Positions 35,823-62,915 of a stretch of 64,000 bases of DNA are shown here, in pieces. A model generated the notes under the pieces. That model searched no databases. It worked only from the letters and a program-made list of their open reading frames with translations, and was not told the origin of the DNA. The translations under genes and the position numbers were made by a program. The stretch covers positions 44,243,003 through 44,307,002 of the forward strand of contig CM055106.1 of NCBI GenBank assembly GCA_029204225.1, written 5' to 3'. The number at the start of each line of letters is the position of its first letter. Position 1 is the stretch's first letter. The DNA comes from Diphasiastrum complanatum (Eukaryota; Streptophyta; Lycopodiopsida; Lycopodiales; Lycopodiaceae).

Positions 35823-36643
35823 TGTTGAATTTCACACGTGTGGATTGTCCACTACATGTACTTGTGATCTCCTAAGGTGTGTAGATGCACCAAGATCAAG
35901 ACTAGATTGAGATTCAAGAATTATCTTTGATTCTATGGCAAAAACACACTACTACATGCATTCAATCACTTCCAACTCTCACTCACACGTGTGGGAAGTG
36001 TTCCAAAAGTATTCTACGTAAAAACAAGCTGCTCTCCTTGGGTAGAGAGAGAAAAACCATCAAGAGCTCTCGGGTAGAGAGAGAAAGCTAGAAATTCAAT
36101 GACACTCAAAATCCACTCAATCTCAAAATCAATTAGATCCAAAAGGAGGAGTACAATGATACTAATAGATTCATGAGCTACCACTATGCTTAACTATGAT
36201 TGGATCACACTTTGCCACCTCTTAATCCTATTGGACCCATTGATCCATGCACCTCTAAATTCTATTGGACTATATTCAAGCACACCTCAATTTTCTATTG
36301 GACCTCACAAGGTTCCACCTCTAAATCCTATTGGACCTCTTAAGCTTCATCAAACAAAAGCATGACACTTGTCTACACTCTAATTGGCACAAGTTTGGCT
36401 CTATTTTGGCTCAATATTGGCATTACAAGTGGAAATGGATAATTTGCCATCTATGCCAAATTTGACCCTATCAACATCCTACACCTAAATGCTTGACTAT
36501 GAGATTCTATGAGACCCCTATATCAAACATTTTGATTTACTTTACAATTCTCCACACGTGGGAACATCCTCCACACATGTGAGATTCACTTACAAACTTC
36601 TATCATAAAAAATACCAACCTAGATTTTTGCCAATCTCTCACA
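35823..36643 (-). repeat. 3' LTR of E
   Basis: On + strand coordinates it begins TGTTGAATTTCACACG and ends CTCTCACA. It is followed by CTCCTCCTC, the reverse of the polypurine tract. CACACGTGTG occurs at 35833-35842 and again at 35984-35993. Confidence 0.95.
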
Positions 36644-36769
36644 CTCCTCCTCAAAAAGTAGCTTGGAAAGGTACTAGATCACTTGAGAAGTTTGTAAATC
36701 TTTTTGAGTGGATCCTTTGGTATGCATAAGAAGTGAAGATCAGCCAAGGGATCCATCATAGCAGCACCC

Positions 36770-37417
36770 TCACCATATCCATGATAAGATCTCTTTGGTA
36801 GAGATCTCTTGCCAATGCCTTTGAAGAGTGCTCCACCAATATGCCACTATTATCATGGGCTTCCTCCATGCTTGATGATGATTTTTGCTTTGAAAGTTCC
36901 ACTTGCATGATGGATGCACCATAAATAGAGAAAACTGAGGCTTCCAAGCCTCATAAGGATCATGGAGATCAAGATCATAAGATGTGAAACAATGATGATT
37001 ATCAAGATTATGCTTTCTAGCTTGACTAGTCCACATACAATGAACTATATCCATGATGGATCTAATCTTGATATCAAAGACTATCTTGATCTTTTTTAGG
37101 CTAGTTACTCTCTCAAGGATGTAAGTGTCCACTTTGGATGCTTCACTTAATCTCAAGAGGAGTTTACAATTTGCCTCAAAACATGTGAAAACATGATTTT
37201 CAAAAAAGTGAGTACCAAGCTCAATCTTGTTCTTACTAGAACCAAGAGTATACTTTTGACAATACAATATCTTGCTTTCAAAAAGTATTGGAAACACATC
37301 TAAGTCAATAATGACAAGAAACATGTCCATACCATAAGCATCATACAAAACTAGTATAGCTTTTCTTGAACTTTGAGATCCAAAAAATTCAATGAAGCAA
37401 GATAGCATTTCAAGCAA
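36770..37417 (-). other. Unrecognised 215-codon ORF within E
   Basis: It lies between the pol remnant and the 3' LTR, where autonomous copias would have RT and RNase H. The translation (MLEMLSCFIEFFGSQSSRKA, ILVLYDAYGMDMFLVIIDLD) is rich in hydrophobic segments, Cys, His and Tyr. It shows no RT, RNase H or zinc motif. It may be captured foreign sequence, an extra ORF of the family, or filler without coding role. The hydrophobic AILVLYDAYG segment only weakly recalls GIMVVFYSSS in the 19904-20668 ORF. Confidence 0.35.
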
Positions 37418-37471
37418 AGGAAGAGAAGCATATATGAATATGTTGTAGTAGATACAACATGAAAGATGCCC

Positions 37472-39340: not shown

Positions 39341-40094
39341 GTAAAGTGGAGATAAATAAAAGTGATGAACAAAAAATGTTGCTTCTCTCTCACTATAGGA
39401 TCCAATAATGGTGTGCTACCATCTCCTATGCAAGACCTTGCCACAAACTGTGAGATGATTCTCACTAGCTATCTCAATCTCTCCAAAACTAGATCTACTT
39501 CACATCAAATGATGGAGTATGGGCAAAGTTAGGATCAAACACTCTTAGCACGTGTGAAATACACTAAGAAACCAAATTTGACTCAAATACAATGATATTG
39601 CATGAAACAAAATGGCTAAGATCTCAAAACAGTGCCAAGATCACATATAGATGAGATTGGTAAGCATTCAACTGTGATTTTGGATCAAACAAGCAATCTT
39701 TTGACCAAACCAAATGTGTCCACCTAGGTCTAGGTGCCCTACCTAACCCTCTTCAAAAGCTTATAACTTTTGATTGGCTCAACCAAATGGAATGAAACTG
39801 ATTGCATCAGAAACTAGACAAAAATAGCTTTAAAACAAGCTATCTAGCAAGATTTTTGGATCAAACATGAAAGAGAACTCCCAAACTGAAATATGTTCCT
39901 CACACGTGTCTGAGCACCTGATTCCGTACAGTATCAGGTCAGACCCAATCAATGTCCTTTTGATCTCTTTTGATCCAAAATTGAACAAGATAGCTAGGAA
40001 AATGGGCCTTGACAATTTCTAGCTCAAGATTGATGAATAGTTTTCACTCAAATGGATCAAAATGCATGGTAACCTTAGGTAGGCTCTGATACCA
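39341..40094 (-). other. Leader and primer site of E
   Basis: About 750 bp without coding signal. The reverse complement of the iMet primer site (GGCTCTGATACCA) ends at 40094, directly beside the 5' LTR. Its sequence parallels the leader of G (60181-60928), showing family kinship. Confidence 0.85.
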
Positions 40095-40914
40095 TGTTGA
40101 ATTTCACACGTGTGGATTGTCCACTACATGTACTTGTGATCTCCTAAGGTGTGTAGATGCACCAAGATCAAGACTAGATTGAGATTCAAGATCTATCTTT
40201 GATTCTATGACAAAAATACACTACTACATGCATTCAATCACTTCCAACTCTCACTCACACATGTGGGAAGTGTTCCAAAAGTATTCTAAGTAAAAACAAG
40301 CTGCTCTCCTCGGGTAGAGAGAGAAAAACCATCAAGAGCTCTCGGGTAGAGAGAAAAAGCTAGAAATTCAATGACACTCAAAATCCACTCAATCTCAAAA
40401 TCAATTAGATCCAAAAGGAGGAGTACAATGATACTAATAGATTCATGAGCTACCACTATGCTTAACTATGATTGGATCACACTTTGCCACCTCTTAATCC
40501 TATTGGACCATTGATCCATGCACCTCTAAATTCTATTGGACTATATTCAAACACACCTCAATTTTCTATTGGACCTCACAAGGTTCCACCTCTAAATCCT
40601 ATTGGACCTCTTAAGCTTCATCAAACAAAAGCATGACACTTGTCTACGCTCTAATTGGCACAAGTTTGGCTCTATTTTGGCTCAATATTGGCATTACAAG
40701 TGGAAATGGATAATTTGCCATCTATGCCAAATTTGACCCTATCAACATCCTACACCTAAATGCTTGACTATGAAATTCTATGAGACCCCTATATCAAACA
40801 TTTTGATTTACTTTACAATTCTCCACACGTGGGAACATCCTCCACACATGTGAAATTCACTTACAAACTTCTATCATAAAAAATACCAAGCTAGATTTTT
40901 GCCAATTTCTCACA
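40095..40914 (-). repeat. 5' LTR of E
   Basis: 820 bp, nearly identical to 35823-36643. It ends TTTCTCACA against the second GGTTT copy. CACACGTGTG is at 40105-40114; the second palindrome seen in the other LTR reads CACACATGTG here. Confidence 0.95.
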
Positions 40915-40919
40915 GGTTT

Positions 40920-41365
40920 AACACAGGTGAAGTATGTCAAAGTGTTGTTGCACAAGTTTAGGTTGCAGAATTGCAAACCAGTGAATACTCCTATTGAACC
41001 AGGTAAAAAGCTTTCTAAGCTTAATGAGTCACAGTCATTTGATGCTACGCTATATAGGCAGTTAGTAGGGAGCTTGATTTACCTTACCACGACTAGACTA
41101 GATATATGCTATGTTGTTGGCATTGTAAGTCAGTTTATGGCAGCACCTACAGAAATGCATTGTAAGACAGCTAGAAGCATTTTGCATTATGTGAAAGGCA
41201 CTTCAGAGTATGGCTTGATTTACAAGAAGCATGATGGTTTACCTGAGTTGTCTGGCTATGTGGATGCAGATTGGGGAGGTAACTATGATGATCGTAGATC
41301 CACTACAGGGTATGTATTCCAATTTTGTGGTAGTTGCTTTTCCTGGTCTAGTATGAAGCAAAGTA
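40920..41365 (+). pseudogene. RT end and RNase H start of D, between E and C2
   Basis: The piece carries the RT tail and connection (TPIEPGKKLSKL, YRQLVGSLIYLTTTRLDICYV) and the RNase H start (SGYVDADWGGNYDDRRSTTGYVF). It ends at AAGTA (41361-41365), the target site of C2. The rest of RNase H lies beyond C2 at 47172. Confidence 0.9.
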
Positions 41366-42047
41366 TGTAAAAATTACAGCAAATAAGGATCCTAAAACAC
41401 TTGAAATGATGAGGGAAACAATAGATTATGATTTCATAAGATTAGCACAAGTTGAACCATCAAAATCCATCAAAAATCTATGCTTGAACCTCACTAAATG
41501 GCCCAAATCCTTGAAGAAGGCTTCACACGTGTGAAAGTACGGCCTCCCACAGTCTGAGTACTGTACACCAGACCTACATTCAATCCTATAATCATTAGTA
41601 ATCACAAGTACTCAAACAATTATGAACATAGAGAGCAATTGCACCATTATGAGAGAAAAAACATGAAATTGCTTGATTGATTTTGGTGAGATATCATCAC
41701 CTATATATACATGATCCATCACGGTTTTGGGCAGGTATGAGTAGCCCTAAACCTATCCCTAATGCTAATTTTGGTGGATCTTTCATCCCTACCAAGTTAG
41801 GGTTGGAATCTTGGAGATCCCTCAACAATGCAAAAATTACCAAAAATAGCTCCTATTTTTTCTCCCTTGTATCTAAGCATAATTTGGACTCATTCCAAAG
41901 GTTCTAACACTTAGGTCTACTTGAGAACATCCTTATGAATGGAATCCTATGCTATTTGGCACGTGTGACAAGCCACATCATGACCATCTAACTATTTACA
42001 AGTCATATGACCAAAACTAGTCAAGCTAGAATTGTGAATTTTTAACA
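41366..42047 (-). repeat. 3' LTR of C2
   Basis: 682 bp, + strand TGTAAAAATTAC to TTTTTAACA, followed by the reverse polypurine tract CTCCTCCTCAC. CACACGTGTG is at 41524-41533. A small ORF within the LTR (also in the other LTR) is not a gene. A TATATATA promoter-like box lies near 41702. Confidence 0.97.
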
Positions 42048-42061: not shown

Positions 42062-43000
42062 CTAGCTTGGTTCAATCATTGCTTTACTAATCACTCCAAG
42101 TGATGATCTGAACTTCATAAAAGGTGTCTTTTGAAGTGGTTTAGTAAGTAGATCAGCTACACATTCATTGCTTGGAACATGCTCCAAAGCAATCTCCTTG
42201 GCTTGCACCATTTCTCTCACAAAGTGATGGCATATCTCAATGTGCTTAGATCTTGCATGGAAGATTGGGTTAGATGCAAGGTGTTGGGCTGATATATTGT
42301 CATTGTAGATGATTGGTGCCTCCTCTGAATCCATGATCTTTAGTTCCACCAATCATCTCTTGATCCAAAGTACCTCCTTTGTAGTGGTTGTCAAAGCTTT
42401 GTACTCGGCCTTGGTTGAAGATAGAGATATAGTTTCTTGCTCCATTGGTGTGTCAACACTTTTGCATACTTCCATCTTAAACTTCTTCAAAAGACTTTGA
42501 GCATAGTTTACTTGACTTATAAAGATAAAATCAGACCCTCTAAGTACTTCTATGCCTAAGATGAAGTGAAGACACCCTAGATCTACCATCTTGAACTCCA
42601 AGGATAGATCTATCTTGATTTTTTCAATACCATCAACACTATTTCCACTAATGATGATGTCATCTACATAAATGAGTAAAAGTACAATACCAACATCATC
42701 AAACTTAATGTAAAGAGTGGGATCATATTCACTTTGAACAAAAGAAAGTGAAATAAGATAGCAATGTAGTCTTGAATTCCAAGATCTCGAGGCTTGCTTC
42801 AAGCCATAGATGCTTCTTTGGAGATGGCATACTTTGTTCTCCATTCCATGCTTGATGAACCCTTGTGGCTGCTCCATATAGATATCCTCTTCCAAAAAAC
42901 CATTCAAGAAAGCATTAGAGACATCCATTTGACATAGAATCCATCCAAAATGTGATGCAAGTGCAATGATTAGTCTTATTGTGACCATCTTGGCCACGGG
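42062..43000 (-). pseudogene. RT and RNase H of C2
   Basis: RT motifs are MVTIRLIIALASHFGW, QMDVSNAFLNGFLEEDIYMEQ, SIYGLKQASRSWNS and the catalytic YVDD at 42659-42670. RNase H retains SSTKAEYKALTTTTKEVLW, IYNDNISAQHLASNPIFHARSK and ECVADLLTKPLQKTPF. Compared with A or F the RNase H is shorter. It copies element RNA to DNA in the particle. It is a fossil despite its youth. Confidence 0.9.
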
Positions 43001-45673
43001 TGCAAAAGTTTCCTCATAGTCTATCCCTCTCTCTTAAGCATAACCTTTTGCAACTAATCTTGCTTTATGTTTGTTAACACTCCCATTTGCATTCAACTTA
43101 AGCTTGAAGACCCACTTGCATCCTATTACATTCCTTTGAGGTCTCTCAACAAGCTACCAAGTTTCATTCTCAATCAAGGCATCATACTCATCCAACATAG
43201 CTTTATACCATTCTTTGGAGTTCAATGCATCTTCAACATTAGACGGTTCTTCAAAACTAGATAAAGCATAAGAAGTGGATGAGATACCCTCAACTTGCTG
43301 TCCTTTGCCTTGATATGTGAGCCTTGATGGCTCCACTTTTGCCCTTGAAGATCTCCTTGGTGTGATAGGTGGGTTTGGTGCTTGCTCCTCCATGAGCTCC
43401 TCCTCAAAACCAAGATCTTGCTCCTCGGCCATCTTCTTCTTGATTGTTGGAGCACTTGAGCCTTCTTCAAGCATATGCATATGATGTTCATCAAAGATGA
43501 CATCCCTTGAAACAACAAATTTGTTCAAGGACGGGAGATAGACTTTGTAGCCCTTGCTTGAGCTTGCATATCCAAGCATGATCCCTCTTGTGGAAGATGG
43601 ATCCTCCTTGGTTCTTGTTTCAAATGGCACATGCACATAACATATACACCCAAAAACTTTCAAGTGATTAAGATTGGGTTTCTTTCCATACAACATCTCA
43701 TAAGGAGTTTTGCCTTCAATTGCTTTGCAAGACACCCTATTCATCAAGTAGTTTGCACATACAAGAGACTCACCCCAAAAGGATTTGGGCAAACAAGCAT
43801 CTAATCTTAAAGCCTTAGAACATTCACATAATGTTCTATTCCTTCTTTCAGCAACTCCATTTTGTTGAGGAGTGTAATGACAAGAAGTCTCTTTCTTGAT
43901 CCCTTCCTCCTCACAAAAGGCCTTGAACTCATTGGAGATGAATTCTCCACCATTGTCACTTCTAAGAATCTTGATGCTATGATTATGATGCTTTTCCACA
44001 AACAACTTGAACTTTACAAAAGTATCAAATACTTGAGACTTGAAGGAAAGTAAGAACACCCAACAATATCTTGAGTAGTCATCAATGAAGGTTAAAAACA
44101 TGGATGAACCTCCATTAGATTTGGTGCTAGCAATGTGCACATCCGAGTGTATGAGTTCAAGAGGATGAGATGACTTTGTGATGGAGTTAGGAAACACCTT
44201 CTTATGTGCCTTGGATAAGGCACAAGCTTCACAAACCTTGTCTTCCTTCCCAATAGACCTTGGTAGGCCTAAAGCATACTCCTCCTTGATCATAGCCTCC
44301 ATGGAACCCGAGTTGACATGTCCAAGTCTTTTGTGCCATAAAGTAAAGGTAGATATCTTGCTCTTCTCGGCCAACATGACAACATTAGTATCCACAAATG
44401 CATCCAGCTTATAAAGTTTGCCAAGTCTAGTGCCCTTAGCCACTATCTTACCCTTCTTCTTGATGAAACATTCATTTGAAGCAAAGTCAACATTGAAACC
44501 ATTGTCTACCATTTGGCCAACACTTAGTAGATTCTTTGTTATTGTAGAAATGTACAAAACACCTTCTATGTTGATCTTTTTGGAAGATCCTAAGCAAAGG
44601 GGAATGCTACCAACTCCTTCAATCTTACAAGCTTCATCATTTGCTGTATAGATAGACTTTATAGGTCCATCATAAGATAAGAGAAAAGAGAAAAACTCCC
44701 TTTTACTAGTCATGTGTGAACTAGCACCCGAGTCAATCCACCAAGGATCTTCTCCTTTGAAGCTTGTTGAAGAAAATATGGACATCATGAGAGAGTCCTC
44801 ATGTGAACTCTCCTCCTCCTCCTCTTTGCTCATGTTGGCTTGGCTTTGATCTTGCTTCCTCTTGAAGCATTCCGAGGCATAATGCCCCATCTTGCTACAA
44901 TAGTAGCACTTCACCTTTGATTTGTCCTTCTTGACTTTGGTGGTTGATGGAGATGCCTTTGGGGGTCCTTCTTGATCCTCAAGCTTTGTAGACTTCTTGA
45001 ATGTTGATCCTTTGCCTTTGGACTTGCCTTTGCCTTTGGTGAAGAGAGCTTGGTCATCTCCACCTTGGATGGAAAGCCTATCCATCCTCTCTTGCATTTG
45101 GCTCCTTCTTGATTCCTCGGCCATGAGTGTGCCTTGGAGTTCTTCAAGTATGGGTAGCTTACCCATAATTGCATATCCCTGAACCAAATTGTCAAATTCA
45201 AAGCTTAGTCCATTCAATATGAGTTGAACAAGCTCTTCATCCTTGATAGGGTCACCTATAAAGGCTAGCTCTTTGTTCAATTCCTTTACTCTTAGGACAA
45301 AAGTATGTGCACTCTCTCCTTTCTTTTGATAGCTTCTATAGATTTGATTCTTCAAAACTAACATTCTAGTTTGGTTCTTGGATTCATAGACCTTTTGCAA
45401 AGTCTCCCAAGCATCTTGAGCTGAAGTGCAATCTCCTACCTCTCTTAAGAGTTCATTTGCAACATTCATTTTTATGCAATGTAGTGCAACATTGCACCTC
45501 TTGATGTATTTGGCTTTTTCTTGAGGATGAATAGGTTCACCCTCCTTACCATTTACAATTTCCATCAGATCTTGCATGATCATGATAGATTCCATTCTAA
45601 CTTTCCATATGGAATAGTTAGTTTTGTTGAGCCTTTCATTAGTATCCAAAAGATATGCATTTATAGATGCCAT
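43001..45673 (-). pseudogene. Gag, protease and integrase of C2
   Basis: A reading frame of more than 800 codons starts MASINAYLLDTNERLNKTNY at 45673. In order it carries the Gag core, a Lys-rich stretch, the knuckle CYYCSKMGHYASEC (about 44869-44912), the protease site WWIDSGASSHM (about 44711-44750) and the pre-integrase block LWHKRLGHVNSGSM. The integrase core follows (FIDDYSRY, LRSDNGGEF, TPQQNGVAERRNRTL; about 43840-44170), then the FGCICYVHVP end and a linker before RT. The element as a whole has a few breaks. Confidence 0.92.
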
Positions 45674-46484
45674 CTAGTCTCCTAATCAAGGACTTGACAC
45701 AAATGAAGGTTACTTCTATTGATTTGATTGAAGGTCTACCTTATCCCACTTCTTAGGGACCTGAAAAGATCAGTAATAGACTTCCTATAAAGATCTAAGA
45801 ATGATCTCTAACAAAATCAAATCATAGAATACTAGAAACAATGCACTTGCTTGATTGAAGTAGACAATACTAGTAGAATTGCCCCTCTTTCTATAAAGAA
45901 CATTAAAGCTTCCAAATGATCTGATCAAGAGTGAATTTCAGCAACCTAATATACTTCCAAAATCACTTGTAAAAGATCTAAATGGAACTTAATGAGGATG
46001 CAACACAATCTACTATCCAATCACAAGCAAAAAATGATCAAAATTAATGAAAAATTGATCTAATTTGGTGCATAAGTCAAGCAATGGTTGGACTGAACCT
46101 AAATCACTTTATGAGGTGCCTACTACACCTTAGAACAGCCTTGAAGAGTCCCCAAAACTCTGATCTTCCCTCTCCTTGAATGCTAGAAAGCCTTCTCTAT
46201 GAAATCACCTCCAAAACTCGCTTAGAAATCAATGCTTGGAGCAAGCAAAACTTGCTATCTTGGTAATGTGAATTGAATTCAACTTTGCCTCTGGTTTTAG
46301 ACACCTAAACACCTGCAAATGAAGTCACACAACACAAATCTCCAATGTATTTGACTCACTTTGAGTTCTAGAATCAATACTAGAGGCTAAGATTCAATCT
46401 ACACAAGATTTAGATAAAAAATTGTGATCAAATTGAATGAAAACCAAGGATTTAGCTCATTTCAGCCTTTAGGCTCTGATACCA
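45674..46484 (-). other. Leader and primer site of C2
   Basis: 810 bp of non-coding leader, nearly identical to that of C1 (23416-24226) in inverted orientation. The reverse primer site (GGCTCTGATACCA) ends at 46484 beside the 5' LTR. Confidence 0.93.
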
Positions 46485-47166
46485 TGTAAAAATTACAGCA
46501 AATAAGGATCCTAAAACACTTGAAATGATGAGGGAAACAATAGATTATGATTTCATAAGATTAGCACAAGTTGAACCATCAAAATCCATCAAAAATCTAT
46601 GCTTGAACCTCACTAAATGGCCCAAATCCTTGAAGAAGGCTTCACACGTGTGAAAGTACGACCTCCCACAGTCTGAGTACTGTACACCAGACCTACATTC
46701 AATCCTATAATCATTAGTAATCACAAGTACTCAAACAATTATGAACATAGAGAGCAATTGCACCATTATGAGAGAAAAAACATGAAATTGCTTGATTGAT
46801 TTTGGTGAGATATCATCACCTATATATACATGATCCATCACGGTTTTGGGCAGGTATGAGTAGCCCTAAACCTATCCCTAATGCTAATTTTGGTGGATCT
46901 TTCATCCCTACCAAGTTAGGGTTGGAATCTTGGAGATCCCTCAACAATGCAAAAATTACCAAAAATAGCTCCTATTTTTTCTCCCTTGTATCTAAGCATA
47001 ATTTGGACTCATTCCAAAGGTTCTAACACTTAGTTCTACTTGAGAACATCCTTATGAATGGAATCCTATGCTATTTGGCACGTGTGACAAGCCACATCAT
47101 GACCATCTAACTATTTACAAGTCATATGACCAAAACTAGTCAAGCTAGAATTGTGAATTTTTAACA
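46485..47166 (-). repeat. 5' LTR of C2
   Basis: 682 bp, differing from 41366-42047 at two positions. It ends TTTTTAACA before the second AAGTA copy. CACACGTGTG lies at 46643-46652. Confidence 0.97.
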
Positions 47167-47846: not shown

Positions 47847-48250
47847 AACAGAACACAACAAGAGAGACTATGGAGCCAAACCGCCCAACCAAACCTAAAT
47901 CAATCCTGGATCTAGCCCCCAAGCCATATCATGTGAAAGCAAGAGGAGAAGAGAGCAACTGGTAAACCTAAACCTCGAGTTGCTGACAGGAGAATATATA
48001 AAGAGTAGTTTTCTGTGCATGAACCCATACAATCCCCATGCAGGTCAACTATAAATAAGTCACATCTCTTGATGCAGTCCTCGTGCCTATAACCGTCACA
48101 CGTACATGCACTACTCCATATGTCTCAATTAGAGTGTCTGGGTCCTCTCAATATCATTAGTCATAAACAGGCCTCAATGTGGAATTAAATCTAGGCGTGA
48201 CCAATAATCTCGAACACTGGAGGCCCATATTATTGAATATGGCCGTAACA
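47847..48250 (-). repeat. Outer part of LTR N2
   Basis: Read on the minus strand it starts TGTTACGGCCATATT at 48250 and matches LTR N1 (17512 to about 17945). The remainder of this LTR lies at 30957-31000, so D was inserted near the inner end of the LTR. Confidence 0.87.
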
Positions 48251-48949
48251 ATCAAAGCAAAAAGGTGGCCAAAAATAGAAAGCTTTTGAAATTAGTTTTT
48301 TGCATCAATCTAGCATGATTTTTTGCATTTTTCTACATTTGTCTTTGATCAAATCTCTTCTAACTTGTGTTGTGGTTAGATCTTTGTAATCTTGAGCCAT
48401 TTGAACGTCATTTTTAGGTCATTTATACTCCAAGGACAGAGATTTATGTTTTTTGACGTGATTCATAGAACCAAGCGTTTTATGTGTTGAAACGTTTGTA
48501 TGCATTTAAGTTTTATTATTGTTTCTAGCTTCTAAATTGACAATATCCACTAGTGAATGAGCTATGCTCCCGATGTGGATGATTTAATTTCCTTTATTGG
48601 TTGAAAGATGAGCTTTGCTCCCCTTGGAAGAAAAGTCTCCCTATATGGATGAGCACCAAGATTGTCAATTATTTTGCATATAGTTTTTTGTTGATTCAAT
48701 AGGATTGATTGTAATAAGCTCTGAAAATTGTGTGTGAGTCATCAAGTTTTAGATCTTAGTTTCAATCTATTGTAGTTAGATCATTTGTTGATCAAGGTTC
48801 ATCAAGATCTACATGTAAGTTGTCTAGTTTCAAGAGAGCTAGTCTTTCAATGTTCTAAATCATAGTGATTTCAGTATTCCTTCATTTGTTGAGAGGAGTG
48901 TGAGTGCTTAGTGCATTAAAAAAGGTTCAAAGAGGAGTAATCATCATAC
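48251..48949 (+). other. Leader-like stretch of copia scrap P
   Basis: AT-rich, with no ORF. It precedes a copia Gag start at 48950, so it is probably that element's leader. A doublet of GATGAGCTTTGCTCCC-like words lies near 48558 and 48607. Confidence 0.4.
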
Positions 48950-49048
48950 ATGATGGCTACTACAAGTGAAATCATGCTAAAAAGTAATGATAGGCTCAAC
49001 TCAACTAACTATTCAACTTGGAAAGTAAGAATGGAGTCCCTAATTGAG
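48950..49048 (+). pseudogene. Copia Gag N-terminus (P)
   Basis: The short frame MMATTSEIMLKSNDRLNSTN then YSTWKVRMESLIE equals the conserved start of copia Gags in C2, E and F. The similarity ends abruptly and gypsy RT follows within a few bases, so this is a junction of two unrelated retroelement families. Confidence 0.7.
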
Positions 49049-49052
49049 TGAT

Positions 49053-49430
49053 GTGAGTATTTACAAAAATTTCTGGAGATTTTCTTGGATGATCTGTGCG
49101 TGTATGGACCTAATTCAGAGCACTTATCCAACCTGGAGAAGGTGCTGAAAAAATGCCGCGAGTATCAGATATTCCTGAACCCAGAAAAGTGTCAGTTTTG
49201 GGTGACACATGGCCTAATCCTTTTCCACACAAGGCCACCTAGATTATTTCAATTTCGCTTGAAGACATGGGTGGTGGTCATTTTGCATCCGACATTATAG
49301 TTTGCAAGATCCTGCAATCAGGATGCTGGTGGCCAATGATTCATAAAGACATGGATGAATATCTGAAGAAATGCAATGTGTGCCAAAGAGCTAGGAGGCC
49401 AACAAGACTGAACTATGGCTCAATATAGTC
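49053..49430 (+). pseudogene. Gypsy RT and integrase zinc-finger fragments (Q)
   Basis: The first part reads EYLQKFLEIFLDDLCVYG and EKVLKKCREYQIFLNPEKCQ, the palm of a plant gypsy RT with FLDD at the catalytic site. The second part (about 49247-49430) encodes HFASDIIVCKILQSGCWWP and CNVCQRARRPTR, the H2C2 zinc-binding domain of gypsy integrase. RNase H between them is missing from view. It is a heavily reduced fossil. Confidence 0.75.
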
Positions 49431-49436
49431 TCGTAC

Positions 49437-49984
49437 GCGTTCACTTGATATTACTCAATTTGACAAAAGGACTCTCTATCAAACGAAATGGCTTACAAAT
49501 GTTTGATAAAGGACTCTTTTAAGATAGACCAGTTTAGCTTATCGTCACGATCCAGGTTAAAAAACCATTCACGTGCTTTATCAATCATGGTCATAGAAAA
49601 CAGTTGGACCATAGCGTCATTGGATGTTTCACCATAAACGTCACACGCATTTTCAAAGACTTGAAAAAATCTTTGAGTGTCCGAAACTACCGTCGTACTT
49701 GGGTCGATCTAATTTCGGGGTCTGTTTCTAAATATGAGCTTCGTGAGTAGCAAAAGCTCCATTAAGGTGGGTTCTAGCCTGTGATGATTCAACACCATGA
49801 AAATGGGCTCGGGCACATGAAGATTCGGCTCTATAGATTCCCGACTCTTGAATGGGATTGTGGACGGCTCGTGTACTTGTGATTTCATTCAGGAGAACCT
49901 ATGACGTCAGATTTCTTCAGACGTAGGTGACACCATTTTGGGTGGATAGTCGTATGTTGAATTGGGATTGTGATGGTGTTCCAT
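49437..49984 (-). pseudogene. Gypsy Gag fragment (S)
   Basis: The minus strand starts MEHHHNPNSTYDYPPKMV at 49984. Further down comes the Gag pattern RFFQVFENACDVYGETSNDA, MVQLFSMTMIDKAREWFFNL and KLNWSILKESFIK, the gypsy capsid signature (L.dkA..Wf..L....W..l...F). It faces the opposite way to Q. Several breaks are present. Confidence 0.65.
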
Positions 49985-50440
49985 TTGTAAGTGTTTTTTG
50001 AATAGGTTTTTTTTGTTGTTTTTGTTTTGTTTTGTTTTGTTTTTAAATCGGTTGTTGGTTAAGTCAAGGGTTCTGTGAATGGCATATGGAAGGAGTTTGT
50101 TAATGGGTAGGTTAGGTACTAGGTGATGAAGGTGTCAAAAGAGAGTGGAGTTAGTTGGTAGAATTTTTTTTTTTTTTGCACCTGGGTAAAGACCTAGGTA
50201 GGTATGTTGTTAATGCGGAAGGTGGGATGTTTCGGCTGATGGAGGTTATATGGTGTCTTTGGTGGATTATATGGAGGTTATATGGTGTCTTCGGTTAATG
50301 ACTGAGTGGATTAATCGATTGTTAATTAGGAAGCAAGTTTGTTCGTCAGTTGATGAGGAATTGAGTATGCTGTCTGTGGAAGGAGGAATGGAGCAGGTAG
50401 ATTCGGATGAGAAGGGCTAAGGAGGACTCGGTCAAAATGA
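49985..50440. other. T-rich stretch, possible leader of S
   Basis: No protein is recognised. A GTTTT/TTTGTTTT run lies at 50010-50045 and a duplicated TATATGGTGTCTT segment at about 50250-50295. It may be the leader of S (minus strand). Confidence 0.35.
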
Positions 50441-50830
50441 AGTGAGGACTTGGCAAAATTTTGAGTGAAAGACTCGGTGGAAAGTTGTGTTGTGCAAGGA
50501 TTTGGTCAAAATTAGAAGGCAGGGAGGTCGGCAGGCAAGGGGGTGTCGGCGAAATGGAGTTGGAGGAGGGTCTGCAGGGGTGTGGCTCGAGCAAAACGGA
50601 ATTGGAGGGCGTCGGACAAATCTTGAAGGAAGAAGCTTCAGGCAAAACGTGAAGGCAGGCCTTTGGGCAAAAATTGGCAAATTTGAAGGAGGAAGCTTCG
50701 GGCAGAACGTGAAGGAGGGCCTTCCGGCAAACATTGGAATGAGCCTCGCCTTGGGGCAAAACTGGAGTGAGGGCCTTCGGGCAAATGGGACGTTGGAGAC
50801 TCGGACTCCGCTGAAATTGGAGTTACCACT
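50441..50830. repeat. GC-rich tandem tract with 60-bp units
   Basis: GC content rises sharply. Two near-copies of a 60-bp unit begin at 50623 and 50683 (TTGAAGGA(A/G)GAAGCTTC(A/G)GGCA...GTGAAGG). Weaker relatives (GGGCCTTCGGGCAA) extend to about 50790. ORFs of 137-156 codons across it on both strands are repeat by-products. Confidence 0.6.
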
Positions 50831-50869
50831 AAAAAGTAATGTCATTTTTAATGTGAACTCAAAAAGTTA

Positions 50870-51670
50870 CGTACGGCGTCCTTCTCTCTACAACGCCCTA
50901 CCTCCCCTCCCTCCCTGCCTGCGCCTACCCTCTCCCTCTCTCCTTGCCTTGCCCTAAGGTACTCCTACCCTACCCCTCCCTCTCTCTCTCTTCCCTACCT
51001 CAGGCGCACAGGCGGCGCCCATGCCCACGGCCCCTTGGCCCAGCAAAACAAAAAAATATTTTATTTTTTATTTTCGTTTTTTCTAAGGACATAATAATTT
51101 TATATATATCACAGTTCCTTCAATTTCTTTCGAGCACCAAAACATTTCATGGAATTCAAAGGATTATGTATTTCAAATTTTTTTTGGCACCCCCCTTCTA
51201 AGTTGTATATAATCCATTTTACTAAAAAAAAATTTTAACTTCCGTAACTTCCTTGTTTGAGCTCGGATTTCACTGGAGTAAAAATGAAAAGTGATCTAAA
51301 CTTATGAGCTTGACACTAAGAAGTTATTAAAATTTTGTAATTATTACTTTCCATTTATTTGTTTTAAGAACCTCTTTCTTGAGTCAGTCTTTTTGTGTTT
51401 CCATTAGTAATTTTCAAATCTTCATATATTTTTCGTTTGAGTTCGGAATTCAACGTTGTAAAAAGCAAAATTGCTCGTAGTGACAAATTGAACACAACCG
51501 ATACTTCATTTTAATTTGTTACACTTTCCATTCACAGCCACTTTATTCTTCGAGGATTCAGAATTTTTTTAAGTGGGTGAATAAGAGCAATTTTACCAGC
51601 CTGTAAAATACCAGTCTGAATAAATTTCAGACGGTGAATTCATAGTCCACAAGTCTTCGCTAGTCATTAA
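50870..51670. other. CT-rich tract then AT-rich stretch
   Basis: 50870-51030 is a C/T-rich run (CCCTACCTCCCC, TCCCTCTCTCTC), resembling the CT-rich part of the T leader at 56480-56560 read on the minus strand. From 51030 on it is AT-rich with two TTTGAGCTCGGA/TTTGAGTTCGGA repeats (51256, 51437), typical of gypsy leaders. No gene is seen. Confidence 0.4.
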
Positions 51671-54355
51671 TGATGGATTACCGTTATAGTCAGAACATTC
51701 ATCTTCGATCTTTGATGAAATACAATCTGAAATCGTATGTTACAATTTGGCATTTGACGGACAATCAAGTTCAATCAGTTGGTTGACTAAATTGGAAGCT
51801 TATTTCTGTCATCGCCATTATTCTGAAGAGCATAAAATTTATTTTGCTTCATTGTGCTTTCAATGATAAGTTCGAGCATGGTGGGATACTCAAGCACATT
51901 TGAGCACAAAGCTTTGGAGTCAATTCAAAATTGCTTGTATTGATAGTATTACCAGACTTTATGAGAAATCATTCGAATCTCTCAAACAAACTGGTTCTGT
52001 ACAACAATTTAATCAGCAATTCTTGGCATTGGTTCAGAAGACAAAATTTGAGTATAGAAAATGTTTGAACTACTATGTGGGTTTCCTTCAAACCGCCTAT
52101 AAAGAATGTGCAACCAACTCTTTTCAAATCCATTTATGCCGCTAGTTTTATGGAGTTGCGCAATATGATGGATCGTGCACTTGCTCTGAAGCACTTATCT
52201 ACAAACCATATCAATGAATGGTGGAAAGTCACCGCTCATCGTTCACGACTTTTTTCCTGAGAATTGGTTAACTTTCAAAAGAGTTTGTAGACAGATCTTC
52301 AATCGATCTGACTTCATCCAATGGTGTTCTTTGGACCAAACAACTATAGTTGCTGAGTACAATAAATAATCCCAACAAATGGTCCCAATATTCGATTATG
52401 GAGAAGTATATCTTGTACAATGCTATATATATGGCTTACAACCTCAATATCGGAGCATTGTAGAAAACTATCTACAAACTACTTCTCTCCAGCCTAGGTT
52501 CTGATTAAGGGAAACTATGGAATATGTTTTAAAGTACGAACAACAAGAACAAAGGTTGAAGTTGGAAGCTGAAAGGAAAGAAGAACAATCCAGATGGTTT
52601 GAGGAAATGAAGATGCGGATTCAGAAAGTGAGTTTATATACTAAACCATCAGTGGATCGACAACCGCATGTGAATGAAAGGGAAGAAACTTCTGAAGATG
52701 AAGATGATCCCATCAATGAGTTTGATGAGCAAAATGAAAACGACGAAGCGAATGAGCAAAGCGAGGACAATGAGTCAGATGAGCAAAGCAATAACGAAAG
52801 TCAAGTCTCAGATCCAGATACAATTGTAGGCAACAAAAGTCCAATTCAAGATTTTGATCAAGTTACAACAACAGATGGTGAAAATCAGGATTCAGATGAA
52901 AGTCAAGATTCAGATCAAGATGTGAAGATAATTGAACATCCTTTCGAGTTTCACTTCGACCATCAAAGTCTGGAACTTGACCTACATCAATGCCTTAATT
53001 TGGTCAATGAACAAGCAACTATAGATCGTCAGATTGAGAATATTGCTATGCTTGAAGAAAGTTGATCAAGGCATTCACCAAGCTTTCAGATTGAGGACTA
53101 TATGACACCGACATTCTATGGCTTGGTATTGAGTGGCTATTTAAAGGATCCGATCTGCGAACCAATTCAATTTGATTTGGGAGCTACTGAGAATATTTTT
53201 CTTTTTGACAACAATCTAATGGAGTATGAGGTTTTCAACTAGGATATTCTCCGCAATGAAAAGATTTCATTATTCCATATAAATCCAATTTGTATCAATA
53301 CCTTGGATTATTGTTCAATGCCTCATAGATCCATTTTACAAGATCTTCAAGTGACTTCAGTTGGAGAACCCATTTCTTATGGATTCTCCAAAACTTAGAA
53401 GCCAAATTGTAATTCACGTGCATATGCAAAATGTATGGATGTGAATAATGATTGGGAACATTTTCTCAGTCAGCCAACACTCTATAGGAAGCTAATTTTA
53501 AAATATGCCATCAATCTATATCAGTTTCTATGGAGAAGTTTACATTGCTCAGTAGACTCTAATGTGATCAATCTTCAATTGAGTAATGTCAACAATGATT
53601 GTTCATCAATGGTTATTTGGAACAATCGAAACATCAAATCCCTGGTTCAACTATGAAATGTATTTTCACTACTTGGGAATGATGCTTCAACGATTTATAT
53701 GGGCAACTGCAAATTTTATATTTCGAGACGAGAGTCTATTTTTGAGGTCAATCAGGTCAAATATTTACAACCACCTATGAATGAGATATTGACCAGATTT
53801 GAAGAAATCTATTTTGGTCAACGGTATGCCCATATGCTTAATCATACGACAGAGTGTCAATATTCATGCCGAGTACTTCATATGGAGCATTCATATGGAA
53901 CAATTCATGACTACCATTATTTATGACAGAATTGTAATTTTCTTCATCAAATTGGCCAAACAACATGGATTCGCAATTACGACAGAAGAGCCGGATGCAA
54001 GACAAAACCAAGAATCCAAGGGAGTTGGATAAGCATCTAAATTGGTATGATGTCGAGGAAGCAGACAAAAGAAGATATTGCGGTGACACAATCTGTCCAT
54101 TCCATACAGATTGGTTACCGATAAGCAATATGGTGCTTCATCGAACTCTTCTTTAACCATCAGTTTTTCCTCCATGGGAACAAGGATTACAGTCTGAAGC
54201 CAACAAAATAATTTCAATTCGACAACTTTGGATCTGTAATGAGGCAATACGCTTTTGGATGACACATCCTCAATCATGGCTACTTAACTAAGGCGATCAA
54301 GTTGATCAGACAAGAGTCTTCATTTTTAAGGACAAAAATGTTTAAGTAGGGAGAG
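51671..54355 (+). mobile_element. Interior of LTR element T: gag-like, acidic, protease-like
   Basis: Remnant translation shows a Gag-like module (YFASLCFQ, LWSQFKIACIDSITRLYEKS, TGSVQQFNQQFLALVQKT; about 51800-52110). A second Gag-like piece (WLTFKRVCRQIFN, VENYLQTTSLQ; about 52260-52500) follows. A 182-codon Glu/Asp/Asn-rich segment lies at 52517-53065, with a coiled-coil-like start. Then comes a weak protease-like FDLGATENIF near 53170. No RT or integrase is recognised. A purine tract (AAGTAGGGAGAG) precedes the LTR at 54356. It is a fossil, broken many times, probably gypsy-derived. Confidence 0.55.
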
Positions 54356-54889
54356 TGTCATGTACTTTAGTACATCAGTGTTTTTCAACGCATTAGAATA
54401 TCCATTGTAAGCTTTGTAGGCCCAAAAGGAGCTATTAGCCTTAAGAACAAGGGGGTTCTCTCTTTAGGCCCTCCAAAGTAATTAATAAGGATAATAGGCC
54501 AACAAGGGCCCAATCTAGTTTAAATAATACTTAACAAGGACTGACTATCTCTCAAGATAGTTAAGTTAAGTTAAGTAAGAGCATTGTCTATAACTAGACA
54601 AGAGATATCATTTTGTGAATCTTTTGGCTCATTTGCAAGTGAGAGCTTCTTGCTTTCTCCTTGTGAATATGAGCTATGGGGATTTCCATTGCTAGGTCTC
54701 ATGTGCCTTATCTACATGAATCCATGCTCCATTTCCATTGATTGTACTCTTTCTTTCATTTCTATTGAGATTCTATGGAGATCCTTTTGTTTCTAGCTTT
54801 CTATGGATATCTTGAATGCTTTGTCACTTCTCTTGCTATTAGCTTTACTTCATTGTTATTGCTATTAGTTTTGGATTTGGCACATGACA
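54356..54889 (+). repeat. 3' LTR of T
   Basis: 534 bp from TGTCATGTACTTT to GGCACATGACA. It is followed by ATTGA (54890-54894), the target-site copy. It is matched by the inverted 534-bp LTR at 57504-58037, with about 21 substitutions and a few small indels by hand. Confidence 0.92.
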
Positions 54890-56222
54890 ATTGAAGATAA
54901 TCAAGATATGTTGGGGTTGAGATTTGAGGAGTATTCCCGGGTTTTCACACCTAGGAGGTCATCGAGAGAGATCCGAGCCTAAGAGGCTTTCTTATGTTGA
55001 CAAAGGCAAGTAAGTGGATCTTGATTTCACCAATTTTGCATATTTCATCTCACATGAAGAGCCAAAGGATGTTGAAGATGCACTCAATACCAAGGGGTGA
55101 TATGAGGCCATGAATATCACCAACAATACTTGGAAGCTTGTGGATCCTCCATCCAACAAGCACATCATTGGATCCAAGTGGGTATTTCGAATCAAGTACA
55201 ATCAAGATGACACCATCAACATGTACAAGGCACAAATCCATGGACTTGATTATGCAGAGATCTTTGCACCCGTGGCAAAGATGGTTACAATAAGGATTCT
55301 TATATCTCTTGCTACCTATTTCAAGTGGAAAGGTGCTCCAATTGGATGTTTCCAATGAATTTCTCAAAGGAAATCTATATCAAACAATCTCAAGGATTCA
55401 TCAAGGATGAATCAAAAGTGTGCTTGCTCTTCAAAAGTCTTTATGGACTCAAGCAAGCACCAAGATCTTGGATTGAATGTCTCAACTCTTTTCTTATCTC
55501 ACTAAAATTCACTCTTAGTGACTATCATCCTTCTATGTATCTAAAGTTTGTTGCTAGTGATATTGTCATATTGTGATATTAGTTGATGAAACTAAAGTTT
55601 CACTTGGAAAAGAGTTTAAGATGCATGATCTAGGAGAGATCCACTATATCTTAGGCCTAGAGATTGACTTTCATGATGACTATGTTTTTATATGTCAATC
55701 TAGATATGCTCTTTCTATGTTGAAAAATTTTCATATGGAAAATTATAAGGGCATTAATACACCAATGGAGCATATTGGAAAAGATCCCAATAAAGGTGAT
55801 GAAAGATCCTTCAAGGACATTACACTATTTAGGAGTTTTATTGGCTCCTTGATATGGCTTACCATCACCAGGCCCGACTTGAGCTATTGTGTGCACAAGT
55901 TGAGCCAATCTATGCAAGATCCAAAGATCCATCATTGGAAGATGGCCAAGAGGGTGTTAAGGTACATATCTTCATCACATGATTATGGTTTACTTTACAA
56001 GAGTGAAGATCTATTCATTATTGGCTACTTGGATTCGGACTTTGCAAGTGATAAGGTGGATCAAAAGTTCACAAGTGCACACACTATCTTTTTTGGGGGA
56101 AATATCATATCTTGGCTTTCCAAAAAGCAAGATATTATCTCTCTTTCTTCATGTGAAGCCGAGTATAAAGCACTCACTACATTAAAAAAAAGAAGTGCTT
56201 TGGATCAAGATCATCGTTTAGG
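54890..56222 (+). pseudogene. Copia RT and RNase H (U), flank of T
   Basis: It begins in the integrase-RT linker (RRSSRE, LSYVDKGK) and runs through RT (NTWKLVDPPSNKHIIGSKWV, SLYGLKQAPRSW, TITRPDLSYCVHKLSQSM). It enters RNase H (YLDSDFASDKVDQKFTSAHT, SSCEAEYKALTT). It ends near 56222 at a junction with an inverted Gag scrap. It resembles A closely. It is a fossil with several breaks. Confidence 0.87.
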
Positions 56223-56362
56223 GCTTTGACTCTGATAAAGACATGAGCACTTTCCCCTTCCTTTTAAATACATTAGAATATTTGCCTTCTTAGGGTTAGG
56301 ACCCTAGAAGTAGACTTACTTTCATATAACTTCTTCAAGGCATTCCAAGCTTCATTTGAACA
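56222..56362 (-). pseudogene. Copia Gag scrap at the junction
   Basis: The minus-strand translation includes LKKLYESKSTSRVLTLRRQIF and ESAHVFIRVK, the middle of a copia Gag as in C2 and E. It is only about 45 codons and lies exactly between U and the T leader. It marks a rearrangement junction rather than an element in place. Confidence 0.65.
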
Positions 56363-57503
56363 TTAGAGGAGTTCTAAATCCAAAAAGGACCCATTGTAAA
56401 GATTCTCTTTATATTTTTTCTCAAATTTTTTTTACACATGGACCAATCAAAATAGGGAGGAGGGCGCCACGCGTGAGAGGGATAGGTGACGGGGTACATC
56501 CAAAGAGAGAGGAGGGGGCCGCTTGAGAGCAGTAGGCAGAGGGGAAGAGAGAGAGGGGCCTTAGGTTTAGAATAGTTTTTTTTTTTTAAAAGGTCCAAAA
56601 GTTAGGTTTAGAAAATTTTGGCAGGGTGTCTTTTTAGGTTTTTGACACTTTTTTTTTATGACCTAGTCTGCGAGGATAGGGATAGGGCTCTGTGAGGGTA
56701 GGATTAGGTCAGTTCTCTTTTTTTTTTTAAAACCTGCGAAACTTCAAAATGAAGAAACTGAAAAAAAAAATTACAAAGAAACAAAACTTCACAAATGAGA
56801 AGTTGAAGTGATTTTCTCTCACTTGAAAAAATTCACAAAAAAATTTCCAAAATTCTGGCTAGCTTGACCCATCTCCACTAATTTGATCATAACTTTCTCA
56901 ATATTAATCCAAATCACACAAACTCAGTACCTCTAAAAAGCTAACAACAAGCTCTATCAGCCTATAGGATCAGATCAATGATTGAGTGTGATTTGATAGG
57001 TCGAATCAGGTCTGACAATTTTGAAGAAACAAAACTACCAAAACTAGAGCTAAGAATCAAGAATTGTCATAATTTTTGGATACTAATCCAAATGACCTGC
57101 CATATGAATCAGATCAAAGCTGAAACAATGCTCTAAAATCCTATGAAAAGAAACTTGAGGTTAAAACTCAAATCAAATCTGAAAAATGCAAACAAAGTGA
57201 AAGAAAAAATCTAGTCACCTATTTTGACAGCTTTTGGTAAAAGTGCAATAACTTTTGCATCTCTTATCCAAATGCCTTGAAAATTGGTGCAAATTAAAGC
57301 TATAACAAAGCTCTACAAACCTATTGAATCAAATTAAAATTGAAAAACAAAATTGAATGTCAAAAATTGGTCTGAACAGACCTGAACCTTTCAAACTTGA
57401 AAATTAGCAAAAAGAAAGCTACAAATGCAATAAACTCATCAAATCTAATGGAATTCTCATAGAATCATCATGAATCATGGATCTATGCTCTGATACCAAG
57501 AAA
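56363..57503 (-). other. Leader and primer site of T, inverted
   Basis: The reverse iMet primer site (GCTCTGATACCA) at 57488-57499 adjoins the LTR at 57504. The leader runs leftwards for about 1.1 kb with no ORF. Repeated ATTTGGATTAGTAT-like sentences resemble a gypsy leader, and a CT-rich part lies at 56480-56560. Confidence 0.65.
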
Positions 57504-58037
57504 TGTCATGTGCCAAATCCAAAACTAATAGCAATAACAATGAAGTAAAGCTAATAGCAAGAGAAGTACAAAGCATTCAAGATAGCATATCCATAGAAAG
57601 CTAAAAACACAAGGATCTCCATAGAATATCAATAGAAATGAAAGAAAGAGTACAATCAATGGAAATGGGGCATGGATTCATGTAGATAAGGCACATGAGA
57701 CCTAGCAATGGAAACCCCCATAGCTCATATTCACAAGGAGGAAGCAAGAAGCTCTCACTTGCAAATGAGCCAAAAGATTCACAAAATGATGTCTGTTGCC
57801 TAGTTATAGACAATGCTCTTACTTAACTTAACTATTTTGAGAGATAGTCAACCCTTGATAAGTATTATTTAAACTAGATTGGGCCCTTGTTGACCTATTA
57901 TCCTTATTAATTACTTTGGAGGGCCTAAAGAGGGAACTGCCTTGTTCTTAAGGCTAATAGCTCCTTTTGGACCTACAAAACTTACAATAAATATTCTAAT
58001 GCGTTGAAAAACACTGATGTACTAAAAGTACATGACA
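57504..58037 (-). repeat. 5' LTR of T, inverted
   Basis: 534 bp, the same length as 54356-54889 and inverted to it. Read on the minus strand it starts TGTCATGTACTTTT, preceded by ATTGA (58038-58042, plus-strand TCAAT), the same 5-bp target site found beside the other LTR. Confidence 0.92.
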
Positions 58038-60180
58038 TCAATAGGCATGATAGGTGATGGATCTTGAGGTGACTTGATCTCGGCCCCTTCAAGTGATGGA
58101 TGTTGATCTTCATGAAATATTACATCTCTACTTTGAATCACTTGTGAAGTAGAGAGTACAAAGAGTCTATAAGCCTTTTTGGTGGATGAATATCCAACCA
58201 TGATCTCTTTGCAAGAGCTTGGATCATCCTTCTTCGTTGTCTCCAAGGGAATGTGTGCAAAGCAAATAGTTCCAAATACTCTAAGGTGATCAAACTTAGG
58301 CTTCTTTTTGAATAAGACCTCATATGCTGTCCTTCCTTCAAGAGCAAAGGTGTGGGAGCCTATTGCAAAGATAACTTGCACAATATATAGCTTCTTCCCA
58401 AAAGTCTTTAGGCAAAGATGCTTCAATCCTTATGGCTTTTGCACACTCACATAAGAAACTATTCTTTCTCTCGGCCACTCCATTTTAAGATGGTGAATAA
58501 ACACAAGAGAACTCCCTTTTTATGCCTTCTCTCATAATAGTCATCGAATTTGTTGGAGATGTACTCTCCGCCACACCTCAAAGACTTGATCTTCAATGAG
58601 AATTGCTTCTCAAGATATGCTTTGAATATAAGGAAGTGATCATACACCAAGAATTTAGAAGAAAAAAGATATAACCATGTATATCTTGTGAAATCATCAA
58701 TAAATATCACAAAGCAAGTGGCTCCTCCCTTGCTTTTGGATGATGAGAAGTGCACATCCGAGTCAATCAACTCCAAAGGATGTGTGCTTTTGATGGAGGA
58801 TCTTTGATATGCTTTCTTGTGTGATTTTGCAATTGCACAAGCCTCACATGGCTTGATCTCCTTGGAAAGCTTCTTTGGCAAGCCAATAGCTTTGGCTCCT
58901 TTGATCATAGAAAGCATGGATCTCTAGTTGGGATGTCCCAACTTCCTATGCCATAACTCCTCCTTGGAAAGCTTTGTCACATAAGCAATATCACAACTTC
59001 CTCTTGGATCAAGCTTGTATATGCCTCCAAATCTTGATCCATGTGCAAGGATCTCATCATTTCTCTTGATCACAAAAACATCAATATTGAATTTCACATC
59101 AAGGCCACTATGAAGAAGTTCGCCAACACTTCTGAGGTTCTTTGTAGGATTAGGCACTTGGAAGATGAAATCTTCAAGGAAATACTCCCTATGTCCTCAA
59201 TATTGCATGCTTGGTCATTTGTTGTATAGATAAACTTCTTAGCTCCTTCATAAGGCATAAATGATGTGAAGGACTCCTTGGAGCTACACATATGTGAAGA
59301 TGCTCCACTATCAATGTACCAAGATCCATCCTTCTTGAAAGGTGTAGATGAAAAACTAGAGACCATAAGAGATCCCTCTCCATCACTTGCAATAGAGTCT
59401 TCTTTCTCCTTAGATATGTTGGCTCGCTTGAATTGGTTCTTCTTCTTGAAGCAATTTGTGGCATAGTGACCCTTCTTGCCACAAAAGAAAAATTTGATAT
59501 TCTTCTTCTTCTTTGAGGTAGAAGCATGAGAAGAATCATCCTCCTCTTCATCTTGGATCTTATCATTTACTTTGTCCTTAGAGAAGTGTTGGTGTTGTTT
59601 TTTGCTCCTCTCTTTGTGCTTGACCAGATAGAACTTTGTCATCATCATTATGATTGACAATTTGTCTATCCTTAATAGCTTGTTCTCATGCCTTGATTCT
59701 TCAACTATTAGCAGCCATTGAGTATGACTTGGACTAGCTCAATTTGTTTGATGGAATCTCCAATACAAACAAGCTCCCTTTGAATGACTTTCACTCTCAA
59801 AACATAATTAGTGGTACTCTCATCACTCTTTTGACAACTTTGGAATAATTGATTTCTAAGAGTGAGGAGCCTAGAGGTATTTTTGACCTCATAGATAGCT
59901 TTGAGAGTATCCCAAACATCCTTGGCCAAGGTACAAGCACCAATCTCTCTCAAAATCTCATTAGAGACATTCACCTTGATATAGTGGAGAGCCATCCTAG
60001 CTCTCTTCTTATACTTTTATACTTCTTGAAGGACTTGAGGCTCCTCCTCAATCCCAAGTACAATGTCCATCACATCTTGGAGTATCAAGATTGACTCCAT
60101 TCTAACCTTCCAAATAGAATAGTTGAAGGTAGGTAGTCTCTCACTAGATTCCAATCGAAAGGAACCCATAGATGTCATGT
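58038..60180 (-). pseudogene. Copia Gag, protease and integrase (G), flank of T
   Basis: On the minus strand Gag starts near 60178 (MTSMGSFRLESSERLPTFNY). It is followed by MESILILQDVMDIVLG, the knuckle CFFCGKKGHYATNC at about 59450-59490, and the protease site WYIDSGASSHM at about 59280-59320. The pre-integrase LWHRKLGHPN and the integrase core and end follow (FIDDFTRYTWLYLF, FGTICFAHIPLETTKKDDPS). Many breaks are present. It is very close to E in Gag. Confidence 0.87.
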
Positions 60181-60928
60181 AATAGTGAAGACTCCTTGTA
60201 ATGAGACAATAAATGTTGCTTCTCTCTCACTATAGGATCCTTGAAAGGTATATTACCAACTCTTATACAAGATCTTGCAACAAAATGTGAGATGGATCTC
60301 ACTAGCTCTACCAATCTCTCTCAAACTAGATCAACCTCTCATCAATTGATGGAGTATAGGCAATGTTTGGGTCAAACTATCTTTGGCACGTGTGAAACAC
60401 TCAAAGAATCCACAAATCACTCTAATACAATGAAATTGTAAGAAACAATGTGGCTATGACCTCAAAATAATGACTAGATCTCAAATAGATGAGATTGGCA
60501 AACCTCTTCTTGAATTTTTTGGTCAAACTAGTAAGATATGGATCAAACCAAAAGTGTCCACACAGGTGCCCTAACTAACTTTCTTCAAATGCTTATGACT
60601 TTTGATTGGCTCAACCAAATAGTATTGAAACAAATTGCTACAAAAACTAGACAAATCTAGCTTTCAAACAAGCTATCTAGCACCAAATTTGGATCTAACT
60701 TGGAAGAGAACCACCCAAACAAATTTGGTTGTCCTTCACACATGTCTAAACAATGAATTCCAATCTGTACCAGATCTGGTCCAATCCATATGATAATGAA
60801 TCCTCTTGATCCAAAAATCACTAAGATAGCAAAGGAGATGCAATCAACACTCTAGATCTTGATTTTCATAAAAAATTTGAAACTATGGATGATAGATGCA
60901 TCAAAGGCTTAAGTAAGCTCTAATGCCA
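60181..60928 (-). other. Leader of G
   Basis: Non-coding, similar to the leader of E (39341-40094). A degraded reverse primer site (AGCTCTAATGCCA) ends at 60928. Confidence 0.75.
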
Positions 60929-61215
60929 TGTGAAAATTCACACATGTGAAAATGCCCTAATGTGTGAAATTGATCTCCTAAGCAATGCTTTTGCACTTTA
61001 GATCAACTAATTGAAATCCAAGATCAATATCATATTCTAAGGCAAAGAGGCAAATCTACATGCATACATTCATAACCAAAGGTGTTTCACACGTGTGGAA
61101 AAGCTTCATGAAAAAACTAAGGCAAAACAAGCTCCTCTCCTCGAGTAGAGAAAGAATAGACCAATTTTGCTCTTTGGTAGAGAGAAAAAAAAATACATAG
61201 AAAATTGAGAGAAAT
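60929..61215 (-). repeat. 5' LTR fragment of G
   Basis: It begins TGTGAAAATTCACAC and follows the layout of LTR E (GATCTCCTAAG, CTCCTCTCCTCG.GTAGAGA), with CACACGTGTG at 61088-61097. It stops near 61215, where an unrelated integrase scrap begins. Confidence 0.8.

Positions 61216-62854: not shown

Positions 62855-62915
<61 letters not shown>

Follow-up and report, generated by a model that had tools for sequence, protein, structure and literature searches.

A single LTR-retrotransposon insertion is expected to carry its two LTRs in direct orientation. In the window (the 64,000-nucleotide stretch of Diphasiastrum complanatum DNA analysed here), the two LTRs of an element that we call T are instead opposed: one lies at 54356–54889 on the plus strand and the other at 57504–58037 on the minus strand, and each is 534 bp long. 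How did one element come to face itself? Comparison of the locus with its relatives in the same genome makes it almost certain that the LTRs are opposed because of a later event, a reciprocal inversion with breaks at 50873/50874 and about 56453/56454, which took place after T had inserted into an older copia element (Table 1). Insertion of T between the integrase and the reverse transcriptase (RT) of one copia, followed by inversion, is the history that the original prediction put forward, and the evidence below supports it.

Table 1. Features of the T locus, with positions in the window.
Feature	Position	Strand	Remarks
Copia-Q leader and gag start, left of the block	48832–49049	+	same family as 56208–56360; 86–93% to L035, L036, L038
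M left half, ending at breakpoint A	50805–50873	+	
Inversion breakpoint A, M / T interior	50873/50874		
T interior, inverted relative to the leader	50874–54355	+	L029, L030, L041 align from 50874
T 3′ LTR, within the inverted block	54356–54889	+	purine tract at left
Target-site duplication ATTGA, 3′ LTR side	54890–54894	+	
Host copia, RT to RNase H part, within the inverted block	54890–56210	+	RVT_2; aligns with L032 until 56210
Older fusion join, host copia RNase H / copia-Q gag	56208–56210		3 bp shared
Copia-Q gag fragment, within the inverted block	56208–56360	-	87–89% to L035, L036, L038
M right half with outer end, starting at breakpoint B, within the block	56361–56452	-	94–97% in 39 other listed places
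Inversion breakpoint B, M / T leader	56453/56454		the A at 56453 can be assigned to either
T leader, not inverted, T homology ending at 56454	56454–57503	-	L029, L030, L041 align to 56454; L039, L040, L042, L043 to 56452
T 5′ LTR, not inverted	57504–58037	-	93.9% to the other LTR; primer-site-like inner side
Target-site duplication ATTGA, 5′ LTR side	58038–58042	-	
Host copia, gag to integrase part, not inverted	58038–60932	-	SH3_retrovirus and Retrotran_gag_2

The T element and its insertion site

By BLAST the two T LTRs align at 93.9% identity (540 columns, of which 21 are mismatches and 12 are gap columns), which confirms the predicted pair of like, facing 534-bp LTRs and its positions. Both bear TG...CA ends. 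Immediately before 54356, on the inner side of the plus-strand LTR, lies AAGTAGGGAGAG, which we take to be a purine tract; the inner side of the minus-strand LTR carries TTTCTTGGTATCAGAGC, presumably a tRNA-Met-type primer site. A purine tract inside the first and a primer site inside the second mark the two as the 3′ LTR and 5′ LTR of one element. On the outer sides, ATTGA follows 54889 on the plus strand and TCAAT, which is ATTGA on the minus strand, follows 58037; this match, likewise predicted, was borne out when the LTRs were aligned together with their outer flanks. Duplications of 5 bp also flank three of the four T copies with direct LTR pairs whose flanks were read (CCCGT in L013, CTTTA in L015, and TGCAA in L016). 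The fourth, L014, has no 5-bp duplication, and its right flank word is common to L013.

T is a many-copy family. A search of the window's own 1.74-Gb assembly, the one assembly used, returned at least 44 LTR matches, including the query copy and the window's other LTR (best 40 of 3282 candidates scored). The best LTR beyond the window's own two is 93% identical among the matches listed, and none of these matches represents a duplicate of the window locus.

The flanks of the two LTRs derive from a copia element. Pfam identifies RVT_2 at 55101–55355 and 55561–56226 (plus strand) in the flank of the plus-strand LTR, and SH3_retrovirus, the integrase end, at 58025–58429 (minus strand) in the outer flank of the minus-strand LTR. 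Retrotran_gag_2 follows at 59711–60016 (minus strand), the integrase core rve at 58462–58923 scores under the cut-off, and by eye the host 5′ LTR starts at about 60933. Genome searches gave 40 matches for the integrase flank, 39 of them besides its own (best 40 of 3091 candidates scored), and 43 for the RT flank including its own (best 40 of 2761). Five loci besides the window are common to both sets of listed matches (on C14, C11, C15 at 40.59 Mb, C9, and C12), and in all five the integrase and RT matches abut with an overlap of exactly 5 bp. Each overlap is an empty site that holds a single ATTGA, and five such sites show that T is one insertion. The same loci bear out the predicted reading of the flanks, integrase and RT, as neighbouring segments of a single copia, and place the agreement of the flanks beyond chance.

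Two of the empty sites, L031 (C14) and L032 (C11), were read and pass from integrase into RT uninterrupted. By eye, retaining a single ATTGA puts the integrase ORF, which ends in ...PIMPI, in frame with the RT side, which begins IEDNQDMLG.... Within the window, a related copia at 35823–40914 also keeps both parts joined: its segment 37885–37546 aligns uninterrupted to L031 and L032 across the site, and 37593–37568 weakly matches 54891–54916 (26 bp, E 0.006). This related copia is short, with LTRs of ∼820 bp that are 98.2% identical, and plus-strand segments resembling copia RT lie on either side of it (35512–35646 and 41002–41235); it is probably a nested insertion.

Repeat M, the T leader, and the two breakpoints

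The T copies with direct LTR pairs (L013–L016) carry homology to both the leader and the interior, so the window's two halves of T, now in opposite orientations, belong to one element. Seven other T copies among the matches listed reach the end of the leader, and each of these seven was read; two further, weaker matches to the leader (on C1148 and C3) stop earlier. Three of the seven (L029, L030, and L041) keep the equivalent of 50874–51100, and in these 17 bp separate the equivalents of 56454 and 50874; the three are mutually 98.6–99.9% alike and are thus possibly not independent loci. The other four (L039, L040, L042, and L043) carry a different middle, and L040, L042, and L043 are >99% alike. 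Their continuations, where read (L058 for L040 and L059 for L039), rejoin homology to the window's interior only from 51245. Of the matches listed for a query spanning breakpoint B, the 39 besides its own start between 56454 and 56452 and none crosses (best 40 of 537 candidates scored). Five ORFs of the T interior, searched against Pfam, have no match above the cut-off; by eye only, those at 51.7–53.2 kb look gag/protease-like.

Could the LTRs come from independent T insertions that face each other by coincidence, each LTR having a different partner? T does have many copies, but the outer flanks share the same 5-bp word and the host parts adjoin exactly. Moreover, one LTR is accompanied by 5′ interior only and the other by 3′ interior only, parts that lie 17 bp apart in the three T records. 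We regard such a coincidence as extremely improbable.

The second element cut at both breakpoints is a repeat that we call M, which is short and has inverted ends of about 36 bp, and is thus MITE-like. M is abundant: with its right half as query, 39 places besides its own are listed at 94–97% identity (best 40 of 815 candidates scored). Of 11 M copies selected with the right half as query, 10 (all except L048) carry the left half directly ahead of it, with 21–26 bp between them. Among six copies picked by the left half, two (L055 and L057) hold both halves in order, 22 and 12 bp apart. The other four (L052, L053, L054, and L056) have no joined halves at the matched site. Three of these (L053, L054, and L056) are an internally repeated M variant, with no right half within the 1.1 kb read; L052 belongs to the same variant at the matched site, although its opposite strand carries a further M piece (13–159) with left and right halves in order. 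One copy, C8:60394218–60394370 (L057), is listed by the left-half search and the breakpoint-B search alike. Compared with copies that hold both halves, the window's left half is 73–93% identical and its right half 92–97%. The window M lacks about 12–26 bp between its halves, depending on the copy compared, and the first ∼180 bp of M are missing left of 50805.

If the block from 50874 to about 56453 is turned back, the T leader end at 56454 meets the interior at 50874, with 17 bp lacking relative to the three T records, and M 50805–50873 meets 56452–56361, with about 12–26 bp lacking. The healing of both elements was judged by aligning each half to its relatives, the halves themselves not being rejoined. 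The order and orientation of the M halves at 50873 and 56452 are those that one inversion requires. The restoration of two unrelated elements by a single reversal strongly proves that a two-break inversion took place; the cutting of M by the same inversion is the strongest evidence here, and it had escaped the original prediction. The inverted block, ∼5.58 kb long, comprises the T interior and 3′ LTR, the host RT, a copia-Q fragment, and half of M. Two other readings of the breakpoints were discarded. M did not simply insert into T, because both of its halves would then sit between leader and interior in left-right order; in the window, either half of T abuts the wrong half of M. An equal 17-bp loss at both breaks is likewise not robust, given that the bases lacking from M range from 12 to 26 bp by copy.

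Self-integration of retrotransposon cDNA can yield inverted LTR arrangements and is a known source of them, so T cDNA integrating into T might also have given facing LTRs. Here, however, the outer ends of both LTRs meet host copia with one target-site duplication, not T interior, and M and copia Q, both outside T, were rearranged in the same event. Self-integration is the least probable of the explanations considered, with a next to negligible chance of being correct.

Facing T LTRs recur in the genome, as two further loci indicate. One (L009:920–6806, also L010 and L011, which look like copies of one locus) is more complex and shows a different rearrangement: one of its LTRs is bordered by a purine tract at one end and by a primer site at the other, so that this LTR looks common to two T pieces. 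In the other (L019:4408–8172, the third such locus), the 3′ part lies on the plus strand and the 5′ part on the minus strand, and the 5′ LTR match is partial.

The copia-Q fusion and the right breakpoint

The left breakpoint had been predicted at about 51 kb, a good guess for 50873/50874. The right one, placed near 56222, was about 230 bp off its position at about 56453/56454; the change in sequence near 56222 is not an inversion breakpoint, and reflects a fusion of the host copia to a second copia, Q, at 56208–56210. Among the matches listed, gag matches end and RT matches begin at this join, and none of the 39 other listed matches spans it (best 40 of 4768 candidates scored). Sequence from the leader and the beginning of gag of copia Q also lies left of the block, at 48832–49049, in an orientation that fits the 56208–56360 gag fragment once the latter is turned back. 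Given this upstream part outside the block, in the expected orientation, the host-Q fusion must predate the inversion, which turned it along with the rest of the block. An alternative in which 56208–56452 is filler DNA copied into the join was rejected, because its parts are M and copia Q, the other half of M lying at 50805–50873 and the upstream part of Q at 48832–49049.

The rest of the host copia (its RNase H end and other LTR), sought left of 50.8 kb, did not turn up in the window at the expected identity. Minus-strand matches to the continuation of L032 occur at 3741–3951 (69%), 27006–27099 (78%), and 42213–42302 (72%), against a comparison level of 86% for the host RT. The host LTR otherwise matches only the related LTRs (∼70–80%) of the window copia at 35.8–40.9 kb. 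The host-Q fusion can account for both missing parts. Left of the M half, 48240–50804 is a patchwork of short segments: degenerate tandem repeats of 25 and 60 bp, the start of copia Q, and what look by eye like gypsy-type fragments of RT and integrase.

Repair, age, and possible consequences of the inversion

Read letter by letter, neither join has clearly shared bases. The 300-bp flanks of the M side and the T side have at most 8–10 exact bases in common on either strand, a length reached by at least 19 of 200 shuffles in each comparison. As the break sites have no notable shared sequence, the inversion was most likely repaired by end joining rather than by recombination between repeats. Homologous recombination between inverted repeats would suit a window that holds such repeats (e.g., a 3.46-kb pair at 22756–26191 and 47166–43705, 97.3% identical), and one 14-bp inverted match near the breaks exceeds the longest in any of 200 shuffles. 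However, this CT-rich match is between two parts of T that share one T strand, and it lies about 90–110 bp away from the breaks; it was therefore a direct repeat inside T before the inversion, unable to pair both sites, and nothing between the M side and the T side rises above the shuffles. Repeat recombination is accordingly hardly credible as the source of this inversion.

The same comparisons bear on the assembly itself, in which a 5.6-kb part of a correct T insertion could have been flipped or misjoined by the assembler. The locus is a nest of repeats seen in one assembly only, and false assembly joins usually pass through long shared repeats. Yet the M-side and T-side flanks share only what shuffled sequences share, and a few bases are lacking at both joins, as end joining often leaves. 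We consider an assembly error very unlikely, though less so than the other alternatives.

The best account of the locus is as follows. T landed between integrase and RT in the older copia, generating the 5-bp duplication ATTGA that both outer flanks retain. Two double-strand breaks, one in T and one in nearby M, would then have released about 5.58 kb, and the released piece would have been rejoined in reverse by end joining, the reciprocal healing of T and M showing the reversal itself, and the breaks and the pathway being conjectural. The probable order is insertion of the host copia, then the host-Q fusion and the T insertion (either first), with M beside Q, and finally the inversion. The K2P distance between the window's T LTRs is 0.041, and the four T copies with direct LTR pairs give 0.019–0.043. 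At a substitution rate of 1.3 × 10−8 per site and year, 0.041 corresponds to about 1.6 million years, a rough upper bound for the inversion.

The locus shares several features with known systems. As in nested Ty1/copia-type elements, T has TG...CA LTRs, a 5-bp duplication, a primer site, and a purine tract, and the host element has copia domains; unlike these elements, the T interior shows no copia RT among the five ORFs searched. As in end-joining inversions of repeat-rich plant DNA, the two breaks lie in unrelated sequence, the joins lack notable homology, and few bases are missing. PMC2686159 describes end joining as accompanied by variously sized deletions and by filler DNA, and presents a maize case. 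That case is a deletion with copied filler DNA, whereas here no filler is seen and the block is reversed. Among the papers listed in a literature search, PMC2773423 and PMC2686159 included, none reported this locus, which carries little weight. The locus is an ordinary small end-joining rearrangement of a known class that involves no new principle and is unusually well resolved.

A transposon nest can thus record a chromosome rearrangement. Each cut element acts as a ruler, so that a single genome suffices to locate the two breakpoints of a small inversion to within a few bases. The locus also suggests that LTR-pair finders built for direct repeats could overlook copies of this kind or misinterpret them.

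The inversion is most likely a neutral scar in a transposon nest. After it, the facing T LTRs lie 2.6 kb apart, and a transcript from either LTR into the other might form a hairpin as long as 534 bp and give rise to small RNAs that silence the T family. In maize, the rearranged Mu killer locus silences MuDR. From analogy, we rate such silencing by the window's T copy as a long shot.

The window contains other repeats besides those at the T locus. The 43705–47166 arm of the 3.46-kb inverted repeat lies in an element whose LTRs, 41365–42047 and 46484–47166, are 99.7% identical, which indicates a young insertion. Two simple repeat arrays, at 17268–17383 and 62855–62913, match each other, the latter being a CT repeat.
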